Shown: piece after piece, positions 10,645 to 20,149 of the stretch | Numbering within the stretch: the stretch's first letter is position 1 | Layout of the letters: the number at the start of each line of letters is the position of its first letter | Assembly (NCBI GenBank): GCA_903827945.1 | Contig: CAIKKN010000027.1 | Coordinates: 1 to 36,716, forward strand | Reading direction: 5' to 3' | DNA from: an uncultured Actinomycetes bacterium | GTDB taxonomy: Bacteria; Actinomycetota; Actinomycetes; Nanopelagicales; Nanopelagicaceae | Length of the DNA stretch: 36,716 bases | Translations under genes and position numbers: made by a program | The notes under the pieces: model-generated | The model's database searches: none | Seen by the model: only the letters and a program-made list of their open reading frames with translations | What the model was told of the DNA's origin: nothing

Positions 10645-10878
10645 TCAGATAGGGTTACTCACGTTTACACCCCATCTAATAGGTCGCAGCAGGTTTGGCC
10701 CATCATCGTGAAAAGTCACACCGTATGCGCCTCGCTTGGCTAATTCATTAACTGTGCGAACTGGGTCAAGTGGCCCACGTGTTGCATCGCCGAAAGGATC
10801 GCGTGCTTGCCAGCCGACGGTCCATAGGCCAAATGTGAACTTATCTGCAGGTGTTGGCTTGTTTGAAGCGCTCGCCAT
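10645..10878 (-). pseudogene. xylA: Truncated relic of xylose isomerase (N-terminal fragment)
   Basis: The 77-residue frame starts with [17 protein letters not shown], continues with [15 protein letters not shown] and reaches [11 protein letters not shown]. This is the N-terminus of the actinobacterial xylose isomerase family, which isomerises D-xylose to D-xylulose and is about 390 residues long. Homology appears to stop around residue 57, immediately after the HDD motif, and the frame ends 20 codons later; nothing resembling the metal-binding or catalytic remainder fits before argS begins at 10569. The start has AAAGAG 5-6 nt upstream, so a short peptide could still be made. I infer a deletion relic caught between argS and a tRNA gene; no xylB or xylose regulator is nearby. 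Confidence 0.8.
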
Positions 10879-14509: not shown

Positions 14510-15442
14510 TTACAACTTACGTGCGTACCATTTTTTCCAAATCAAGCGATGAATTGGAATTTTGTAAGGCAACTTCCGAATGAACGGGAAGATTGGGAAG
14601 AGTGCCAAACAGAGGGTGAGCAGCCCCATGAGGGTCATCACCAATGTATCTGCATTTCCAGATGACTTGAATGGCTCGACCTGATACCAGAGCGAGAAGA
14701 GCCACAACCAAGATTGTCCTGGCCATGATCCAGTTTCATTCATGACACCCCATTGATCGCCACCCAGATGTTGCGCAGCTGCCAACTCACCAAAGTATCC
14801 CTCGCTGTCAGCCAAGAAGAGAAGTGGTTTTGTGAAGTCAGTTGGAAGTGGTGTATCACTTGTAGTCAGTGCGCCATCAAGAGCGCCTGTCTTGGCCATC
14901 ACTAATAGAGCGGAGACCATTTCAGGTACAGGGCCAAATGCATTTGCAGTATCTGCGACAGAGACCGCGTCTGTGGCTTTTCCTAAAGCATCAACATAAG
15001 CAGTTGCCCACTTACCTTGTTGATCGGATGAAGCCTCTTTCCACGCAGTAACTGCATCATTTGCGGCAGGGTCGTTAAGAATTGCCAGAGGCTCAGTAAC
15101 GAAAGATGTCGCTGGATCTACTGGAATTCGAACCCCAGCCCAATCCTGCAATTTCAATGGTCCAAGTGTTGGGCCCTTTGCAGCATTGTTATATGGAGCG
15201 CCGTATCCAGCCGATGTTGTGGTTCCAGCTAATTCGCCAGTTGCTGTTTGAACAAAGTCCGGTGCATTTGTAAGTGCCCAGGATTTAAGTGTTACTGCCT
15301 TTTCATCGGGTGAACTAAAGAATAAAGAAAGTCCGGCTGCAAGCAGCGCGACTACGACAACGGCAATTACGCCTTCTTTAATGATGTCATAAGAACGAAC
15401 TGGTCCGCTCCACTTTTTTGAAGGATCAACTTTCATAACCAT
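14510..15442 (-). CDS. Divergent subunit-IV-like partner of cytochrome b with large extracytoplasmic insert
   Basis: The 310 residues begin with a cytosolic stretch, one helix (about 22-43), then about 185 mostly polar residues that should lie outside the membrane, an amphipathic segment SWLWLFSLWYQV (about 234-245), and a helix at about 256-278 followed by a basic C-terminus. Position, topology near the end, and LWYQVEPFK recall the C-terminal half of cytochrome b (subunit IV, PetD/QcrC), whose PEWYFL...YQ motif forms the quinol-oxidation site, but PEWY itself is not there and the extracytoplasmic insert has no counterpart I recognise. The ATG overlaps the cytochrome b stop (TAATG), with GGAGG 9 nt upstream. 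The family assignment rests mainly on the neighbour and is tentative. Confidence 0.55.
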   Translation of the reverse strand: MVMKVDPSKKWSGPVRSYDIIKEGVIAVVVVALLAAGLSLFFSSPDEKAVTLKSWALTNAPDFVQTATGELAGTTTSAGYGAPYNNAAKGPTLGPLKLQDWAGVRIPVDPATSFVTEPLAILNDPAANDAVTAWKEASSDQQGKWATAYVDALGKATDAVSVADTANAFGPVPEMVSALLVMAKTGALDGALTTSDTPLPTDFTKPLLFLADSEGYFGELAAAQHLGGDQWGVMNETGSWPGQSWLWLFSLWYQVEPFKSSGNADTLVMTLMGLLTLCLALFPIFPFIRKLPYKIPIHRLIWKKWYARKL

Positions 15443-16068
15443 TAGAAAGCACCTCCTTCAATTGTTGCATCATTATCTATTGGTGGAACGACGCCCTTGC
15501 GTCGCACCAAGAGAATGTGCCAAACAACAATAATTCCAACAGCAAGTGGCAAAAGTGCAACGTGCAGCAAAATTGCCTGGCCAGTGTTAAGAGTATTGAA
15601 GAATGCGCCTATTCCCATTGCATTGAATCCATCTTTTGCTTCGGTGGCAATCCACTGAGAATCAAAGTTTGTTTGGATGAGATACCCGGTAAGGGCAGTG
15701 ACGATTGAGGCCATAAATGCAATGACGCCAGTAACCCAAGTTGCTGTGCGCTTTCCGCGCCAGGCGGCCATCCAGAATTTGCCCCAGAGGTGGACAACCA
15801 TGAAGACGAAGAAGAGCTCAACGCTCCACAGATGCATCGAATTCCAGAAGTGTCCAACACTTGAAACGTGCCACCACGCTGGACCCTCAAGAGTGAGAAC
15901 AAGACCTGTTGCAATCAACATCACGAGGGAAGCAATTGTCAGTACACCGAATACATAAATCCACGATGCCACATATGCTGGTTGATTATCAGGAAGAAGA
16001 TCTTCTGGTTGCATGCTTTCCAATGTGGACTTGCGAAGTCTGGCAGTCCAGTTCTTAGAAGAGCTCAT
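15442..16068 (-). CDS. b6-like di-heme cytochrome b (N-terminal four-helix type)
   Basis: This 208-residue integral membrane protein corresponds to the four-helix half of cytochrome b (PetB/QcrB). Two histidine pairs needed for two b hemes are present: H79 and H93 in helix B, H169 and H184 in helix D. Their spacings of 14 and 15 residues are those of b6-type rather than mitochondrial cytochrome b. ALTGYL and the end HILLVRRKGVVPP also match. The LPWD-like motif after GYL is replaced by IQTN, and the Cys that anchors the extra covalent heme in b6 and Bacillus QcrB has no equivalent near residue 39. Expected role: quinone-linked transmembrane electron transfer. Neighbouring genes do not include a Rieske protein or cytochrome c. 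Confidence 0.85.
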   Translation of the reverse strand: MSSSKNWTARLRKSTLESMQPEDLLPDNQPAYVASWIYVFGVLTIASLVMLIATGLVLTLEGPAWWHVSSVGHFWNSMHLWSVELFFVFMVVHLWGKFWMAAWRGKRTATWVTGVIAFMASIVTALTGYLIQTNFDSQWIATEAKDGFNAMGIGAFFNTLNTGQAILLHVALLPLAVGIIVVWHILLVRRKGVVPPIDNDATIEGGAF

Positions 16069-16070
16069 CT

Positions 16071-16238
16071 CTAGTCATCCTTTCCATGTGGAAACGGAAG
16101 AAAAATCGCCATCGCAAAAATCACAAACATCGAAACGATGATGACGAGGTTTCCAACCGATACTTGAAAGGGCCCGATGCCCAAGTAGTGGGCTGGGTGG
16201 TTAAGGTTGATAAGTGCCATATTTAGTGCCGAATGCAT
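16071..16238 (-). CDS. 55-residue single-helix membrane peptide of the cytochrome operon
   Basis: From the ATG at 16238 the product has 55 residues: a short N-terminal part with two His (NLNHPAHYLG), one strong transmembrane helix at about 28-49 and a short charged end HGKDD. A start is chosen here because GGAG (16245-16248) is 6 nt upstream; the frame is open back to 16370 but those extra residues are polar and lack a ribosome-binding site. It ends 2 bp before the cytochrome b ATG. I do not recognise the family; size and placement suggest a small accessory subunit like those around cytochrome b complexes. Confidence 0.65.
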   Translation of the reverse strand: MHSALNMALINLNHPAHYLGIGPFQVSVGNLVIIVSMFVIFAMAIFLPFPHGKDD

Positions 16239-16397
16239 ACGGCTCTCCATTTCAGTTATGAGCAAGGTACTCCGATAAGCGTGAATTGAACCCAGACGAA
16301 GGGTTAATAAAGAGGTATTGCTGAAGACTGGAGTGGTGGCGCTCCTAACATTCCCCTTAGACTCTGACATCCGTTGATTCGAGCAAGTGAGGCAATA

Positions 16398-19157: not shown

Positions 19158-20066
19158 TTAGGAATACTGTCCTGGAAGTCCAAAGACAAGTCCGCCAACA
19201 ACACTTCCATCTCCATAAACTGCGGAAACTCGGAATGATGACCAACCTGTGGTGTCACCCTTTGTAATATCCAGTGAAAGTTGTGATGCAGGAACAGTTG
19301 AAATCAATTTCCAATCTCCACCGTTTGAGCGAATCTCAACATTAAAGTTTGTGATTCCAGTCGCTCCATCTGCAGCCTTCCAGAAAATTGTTGCACCTGT
19401 TGCTGTGTAGTGAGCAACGATGCCGACTGGTGCTGGCATGTCAGCCGATGGCGCAGCAGACATTGTTGCTGCTGGAGTTGAAGCATCTGGTGTAGCTGCT
19501 GCTGATTCAGATGGTGCTGCTGATTCAGAAGGAGCCGATGAGGCTGCTGGCGATGCCGTATCACTCGAAGTCGATGTGTGGTTACGTGAAACAACCGCAA
19601 CAGCAAGCAAGACAATTCCGACGAACACTGCAAGCACTACGCGGCTTGAAGACTTCTGTTGAGCAGGCTTTGCGGCTGATGCCGCTGCAGGTGCTGGTGT
19701 TGTAGATATTGACTTTGTCGATGTAGCAGATCCTTTAGAAGGAACTGCAGGAATAACAATACGGTCAGCAACGGGAGCTGAAGCAAGAACTTTCTTCGCA
19801 ACTTTTTTAGATGCTGATTTCTTAGCTGCTGACTTCTTAGCTACCTTCTTGACTGCCTTTTTAGCAACTGCCTTTTTAGCCGCTTTCTTTACAACTTTTT
19901 TAGCGGGAGCCTTCTTGGCAACCTTCTTAACTGGCTTTTTTGCTACAGCTTTTTTAGCTACAGCCTTCTTCGCGGTGGTCTTCTTTGCTACAGACTTTTT
20001 TGCAACTTTTTTCTTTGCAACAGTCTTCTTAGCAGCAGACTTCTTTGCGGTCTTCTTAACGGCCAC
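19158..20066 (-). CDS. Membrane-anchored protein with H1-like Lys/Ala tail and Fn3-like outer domain
   Basis: The 302-residue product starts with about 94 residues of [14 protein letters not shown] repeats like histone H1 or HupB tails, then a linker, one transmembrane helix (about 142-160, [17 protein letters not shown]), a Ser/Ala/Pro-rich spacer, and a fibronectin-III-like domain (about 204-297, with [25 protein letters not shown]). The basic tail should lie in the cytoplasm and the Fn3 domain outside. Start: GTG at 20066 with AAGGAG 7 nt upstream; an extra 13 codons further up lack any ribosome-binding site. I know of no named family with this order. It is convergent with the acyltransferase and lies 83 bp after rdgB on the same strand. 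Confidence 0.8.
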
Positions 20067-20149
20067 AGATGTGCTCCTTGATGTTAATAGTGAGGTTAAT
20101 TCCAATGAGATAAGCCTACCTCACTCACAGATTTGAGCAGGAAAATGGC

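Follow-up and report, generated by a model that had tools for sequence, protein, structure and literature searches.

Here, we report that a window of 36,716 nucleotides (the whole stretch of DNA that was analysed) from an uncultured bacterium of the Nanopelagicaceae carries three adjoining genes, the trio, whose products are predicted to form a di-heme cytochrome b complex without a Rieske protein or the standard motifs of the quinol-oxidation (Qo) site. Its core belongs to the known cytochrome b superfamily; in the open-access literature we found no description of the trio. We give an even chance to the reading that the complex is a di-heme b conduit between menaquinone and a partner on the outer side of the membrane, working in either direction and switched by oxygen or redox state. 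Quinol oxidation in concert with a Rieske protein is what defines cytochrome b complexes, and if this family keeps both hemes without quinol chemistry, another use of the same core would be shown. The kept heme ligands, the lost Qo motifs, the lack of an adjacent Rieske or cytochrome c gene and the joint evolution of the three genes support a di-heme complex at the level of sequence, and to that extent the first-pass annotation, which had proposed such a complex from the letters of the window, is borne out. The three genes are:

16071 to 16238, minus strand: peptide gene, first of the trio (55 aa), with GGAG upstream of the ORF
15442 to 16068, minus strand: cytochrome b gene (208 aa)
14510 to 15442, minus strand: partner gene (310 aa)

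A Shine-Dalgarno-like sequence lies ahead of each gene, 2 bp separate the peptide gene from the cytochrome b gene, and the start and stop of the partner and cytochrome b genes share one base, all within 14510-16238 of the minus strand, where the first-pass annotation had correctly placed them. The peptide has one predicted membrane helix and a homologue ahead of cytochrome b in 108 of 110 loci, and the partner gene lies directly 3' of the cytochrome b gene in the relatives compared. It had also been said that the peptide is fused in the operon; this does not hold in the window, where it is a separate ORF, but it does in relatives, i.e., peptide and cytochrome b are fused in three loci (L124, L127 and L140), cytochrome b and partner in another (L114), and a single ORF spans all three in one genome (G047). 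All these fusions follow the gene order, and such natural fusions indicate that the trio is, judged by its genes, one three-subunit membrane complex. Elsewhere in the window, a 77-aa ORF at 10645-10878 (minus strand) reads like the N-terminal end of xylose isomerase, which we take to be possibly a remnant, and the protein encoded at 19158-20105 (minus strand) has a long lysine/alanine-rich region of AKK-type repeats followed by a later membrane helix.

Matches to the trio were found at 544 loci or more (at least 544) in one genome collection, and chance is excluded as an explanation of the trio by its conservation in hundreds of genomes. The best 80 of the at least 544 loci belong to Actinomycetes (Nanopelagicaceae, Streptomyces, Kitasatospora, Nocardioides, Intrasporangium) and Acidimicrobiia and include a few bins labelled Dormiibacterota or Chloroflexota. 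The spread is patchy: an even sample of 296 Actinomycetota genomes contained 10 with the trio. On plasmids there was no copy of the partner and only a distant cytochrome b. One genome (G183) has two divergent trio copies (L200, L201), one of them between P-type ATPase genes.

The 208-aa protein is a four-helix cytochrome b, above the curated cut-offs of both Pfam PF13631 (44.3 bits, cut-off 27) and PF00033 (33.9 bits, cut-off 27.2), and its PDB matches are cytochrome b6. The two His pairs sit on helices B and D with spacings of 14 and 15, and in an alignment of 35 relatives H79, H93, H169 and H184 are invariant, as is R189 after the heme ligand. No Cys is conserved in the trio cytochromes b, so the Cys for a covalent heme at the inner site is absent. 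At the site of the LPWD turn the alignment places the following:

15667 to 15678, minus strand: IQTN (residues 131-134 of cytochrome b), in alignment with PetB and canonical cytochrome b

All 20 trio members compared have lost LPWD here, reading QxN[FW]D in nearly all and MTNWD in one, vs LPWD, LPFD, LPMN, LPDD or close variants in 22 canonical cytochrome b proteins. Kept heme pairs, IQTN in place of LPWD and a missing heme Cys had all been read from the window alone; the heme pairs, the loss of LPWD and the lack of the Cys extend to the relatives compared. On the outer face, Q132, N134, D136, Q138, K145 and D146 are invariant or nearly so. In a phylogeny of the 20 trio members and the 22 canonical proteins, run as a check on the same annotation, the trio cytochromes b form a single clade (support 100/100) outside PetB/QcrB, with the Qo motif lost in all members compared. 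The branch that separates them is 3.4 changes per column; with branches this long the exact relationship is unsure, and we name no canonical family as the nearest.

The partner contains a pair of hydrophobic helices, at residues 24-42 and 267-285, and gives no Pfam, NCBIfam or PDB sequence match, nor a Pfam match to the cytochrome b C-terminal domain PF00032 (helices E and F). Two of its parts need to be located:

14702 to 14722, minus strand: PGQSWLW (partner residues 241-247) where PEWY is expected, from the alignment of relatives
14723 to 15310, minus strand: extracytoplasmic insert of about 195 residues, predicted all-helical by AlphaFold2

PEWY, including its Glu, is absent from the partner in all members compared; P241, G242, Q243, W245 and W247 are invariant in 37 relatives, and N235, E236, Q243, W245 and Y253 are invariant or nearly invariant residues of the outer face. 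The first-pass annotation had the partner replacing subunit IV without PEWY and with some 185 extracytoplasmic residues between its helices. The missing PEWY and the large insert stand, the latter now measured at about 195 residues. Comparison by hhalign of the insert-free partner with 33 subunit IV sequences gave a probability of 65% and a score of 33.0, barely above the 32.2 of the best among 60 block-shuffled controls; derivation from, or replacement of, subunit IV is plausible and weakly supported, i.e., suggestive. Structure prediction and profile searches of the insert gave an all-helical model (pLDDT 81, pTM 0.80) and no Pfam match, and no fold match was found among the PDB or BFVD matches listed, which does not by itself prove a new fold. 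The insert shows no cofactor motif, and neither Cys nor His is conserved in it; we rejected a cytochrome c-like domain or a metal domain on this ground, and the insert probably carries no heme or iron-sulfur cluster. Please note that the AlphaFold2 model of the whole fusion has a mean pLDDT of 71 with a weak membrane part, and we claim no heme or quinone geometry from it.

The outer-face residues of the two proteins (Q132, N134, D136, Q138, K145 and D146 of cytochrome b; N235, E236, Q243, W245 and Y253 of the partner) resemble a pocket, and this would suit a complex that still oxidises quinol at a rebuilt outer site and passes electrons from quinone to quinone across the membrane. We regard this as rather unlikely, given that no member compared retains LPWD, or PEWY with its Glu, and that no acceptor of high potential is available to take the second electron.

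No Rieske or heme-c gene adjoins the trio in 93 loci, which extends to relatives what had been observed in the window, and the search of the relatives' operons leaves the reading of a Rieske-less complex unrefuted. Apparent Rieske-like matches near trio loci are a small LuxR-type regulator (see below), and two isolated CxxCH matches appear to be accidental. The coexistence of the trio with a separate qcrCAB cluster was also checked: the window's genome encodes a full, normal qcrCAB, with a QcrB of 530 aa that has LPDD and PDFY, and the trio would work alongside the ordinary bcc complex and is not a substitute for complex III. The same genome has two unlinked genes for outer-face Rieske proteins (G000:C9:99334-99783 and G000:C34:4964-5839; loci L003 and L002), one product being TAT-type, 161 aa long and without the disulfide Cys, and the other a fusion of a DoxX-like membrane protein with a Rieske domain. 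A diverged bc-type complex could in principle borrow one of these, or QcrA. However, within the genus 13 genomes with the trio lack the TAT-type protein and 3 without the trio have it, and the DoxX-Rieske fusion is present in all 6 genomes without the trio, a pattern in which neither unlinked Rieske tracks the trio; with the Qo motifs lost and no Rieske gene beside the trio in relatives, we consider borrowing improbable.

No gene is consistently adjacent to the trio outside single lineages, and the neighbours were rejected as a clue to the substrate because they are lineage-specific only (MIP with ArsC, NhaA, ctaA/ctaB, a LigB-like dioxygenase, universal stress proteins, P-type ATPases). Genes for a MIP-type channel and ArsC adjoin the trio in L089-L100, L116 and L073, upstream in one clade and downstream in L073, and an NhaA gene lies directly downstream on the same strand in L080, L081, L085, L101, L108, L115 and L130. 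In four Acidimicrobiia loci (L138, L195, L196, L198) ctaA is beside or near the trio, together with ctaB and a redoxin gene. The last arrangement, and the coexistence with qcrCAB, would fit a complex that is no enzyme but serves bcc-aa3 or other respiratory machinery as an accessory or sensory heme-b module; against this are the patchy spread (10/296) and the full conservation of the heme pairs, which suggests transmembrane electron flow, and we hold it to be unlikely.

The principal new finding concerns regulation: some 100 bp ahead of the trio there is a conserved dyad. Neither this dyad, nor the boxes and the regulator described below, nor the natural fusions were visible to the first-pass annotation. 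Among high-GC loci the palindrome GGGNCNNNNGNCCC, which matches the DevR/OsdR-type hypoxia box (GGGNC-N4-GNCCC), occurs within 400 bp upstream of 10 of 29 trios, vs 12 of 302 control upstreams taken from other genes of these loci (Fisher P 1.7e-6; the dyad P values are indicative, related sequences not being independent), and 9 of 12 sites are placed 96 to 151 bp ahead of the peptide's first conserved residue. Upstream of the high-GC trios, boxes with other spacings or in inverted form stay at background level. The consensus of OsdR is AGGGCCGATCGGCCCT, and its predicted targets include universal stress proteins, pyruvate phosphate dikinase, alcohol dehydrogenase, nitroreductase and nitrate reductase (NarG2) (PMC5069765). 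Universal stress protein genes are found 1-4 kb from the trio in four loci, one of which also has PPDK, phosphoketolase and ADH. The DevR/OsdR-type box GGGNC-N4-GNCCC is absent from the window, whose dyad is the following:

16331 to 16344, no strand assigned: 14-bp dyad GAGTGGTGGCGCTC, putative operator, 93 bp before the ATG of the peptide

Across the window's low-GC lineage the dyad GAGNGNNNNCNCTC is found, exact, upstream of 29 of 61 trios vs 2 of 669 control upstreams; it has the same 5-4-5 form as the high-GC box with a different half-site, and it is conserved amid poorly alignable upstream sequence. Whole-genome counts of the GAGNG dyad are not above control, and a large regulon was rejected on that ground.

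In 11 loci a small gene is divergently transcribed from the trio; its product, about 105 aa long, has a LuxR-type helix-turn-helix. This GerE-like HTH falls below the Pfam GerE cut-off, and the C-terminus of the protein carries CxH-x10-CxxH in 28 of 28 members, which is likely to be a metal or Fe-S site; members of the family include G000:C24:47309-47620 (locus L214) and L119 2565-2894, possibly metal or Fe-S redox sensors. In the window's genome the gene is away from the trio (on contig C24). Within the genus, 24 genomes have both regulator and trio and 6 have neither, with two exceptions, one with its peptide gene at a contig edge (G005) and one with a contig that begins inside the trio (G008); the co-occurrence gives a Fisher value of 5e-5, or 8e-6 once one contig-edge case is taken into account. 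In the window's lineage we infer that the small regulator binds the dyad.

Control of the trio's expression by oxygen, NO or redox state is probable, with DevR/OsdR-type regulators acting in high-GC lineages and the small LuxR-type protein with its metal motif in the window's lineage. Regulation of this stress type, together with a four-helix di-heme b architecture, would also fit a role in detoxifying superoxide, or some other small oxidant or reductant on the outer side, similar to that of the superoxide oxidase CybB. The trio, however, is b6-type and not b561-type, it has a large outer domain and an extra subunit, and nothing in it is specific to superoxide, making this reading highly improbable.

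In the conduit between menaquinone and an outer partner that we favor, a cytochrome of the b6 type, whose two bis-histidine hemes span the membrane, would be joined by the IV-like partner and the one-helix subunit. The first-pass annotation had likewise proposed a quinone on one face and a partner outside. Menaquinone would react at an inner (Qn-like) site, where R189 is kept, and the outer heme would exchange electrons with a P-side partner docking on or under the cofactor-free insert, the docking surface also comprising the conserved QxNFDSQ and NExxxxPGQxWLW. We lean slightly to a flow from the outer donor to menaquinone, which would conserve energy. With the Qo motifs and Rieske gone, the hemes kept and low-oxygen-like sites upstream, the trio probably represents a hitherto undescribed respiratory device for adverse conditions. 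That it represents a widespread, undescribed Rieske-less class coupling an outer partner to menaquinone under a DevR-like or metal-dependent low-oxygen switch, including in the abundant freshwater Nanopelagicales, is a proposal we make tentatively and at somewhat less than even confidence. If the low-oxygen link is true, it bears on the survival of hypoxia and starvation by abundant, genome-reduced freshwater bacteria and by soil actinomycetes.

Among known systems, PetB/PetD of the b6f complex are alike in the four-helix b6-sized protein, the two His pairs, the gene order of b followed by a IV-like gene and the small one-helix subunit; in contrast, the trio has no LPWD, PEWY, covalent-heme Cys or Rieske protein and falls in a separate clade, and its partner, with two helices and about 195 residues on the outer side, differs from PetD. 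QcrB of the actinobacterial bcc complex shares phylum, cytochrome b superfamily and genome with the trio, but it is 530 aa long, has LPDD and PDFY, and is clustered with qcrC and qcrA. The best NCBIfam match of the trio cytochrome b is ExtP (NF040969, E 5.6e-14), a b-type cytochrome of Geobacter selenite/tellurite operons; the match falls below the cut-off (52.5 bits vs 290), and the trio has no heme-c gene cluster alongside. As to regulation, the word cytochrome is absent from the main text of the OsdR paper (PMC5069765). In high-GC lineages the box, where a trio has it, shares with the DevR (DosR)/OsdR regulon its consensus, a similar position and some neighbour families, whereas the window's lineage differs in using another dyad and the small regulator.
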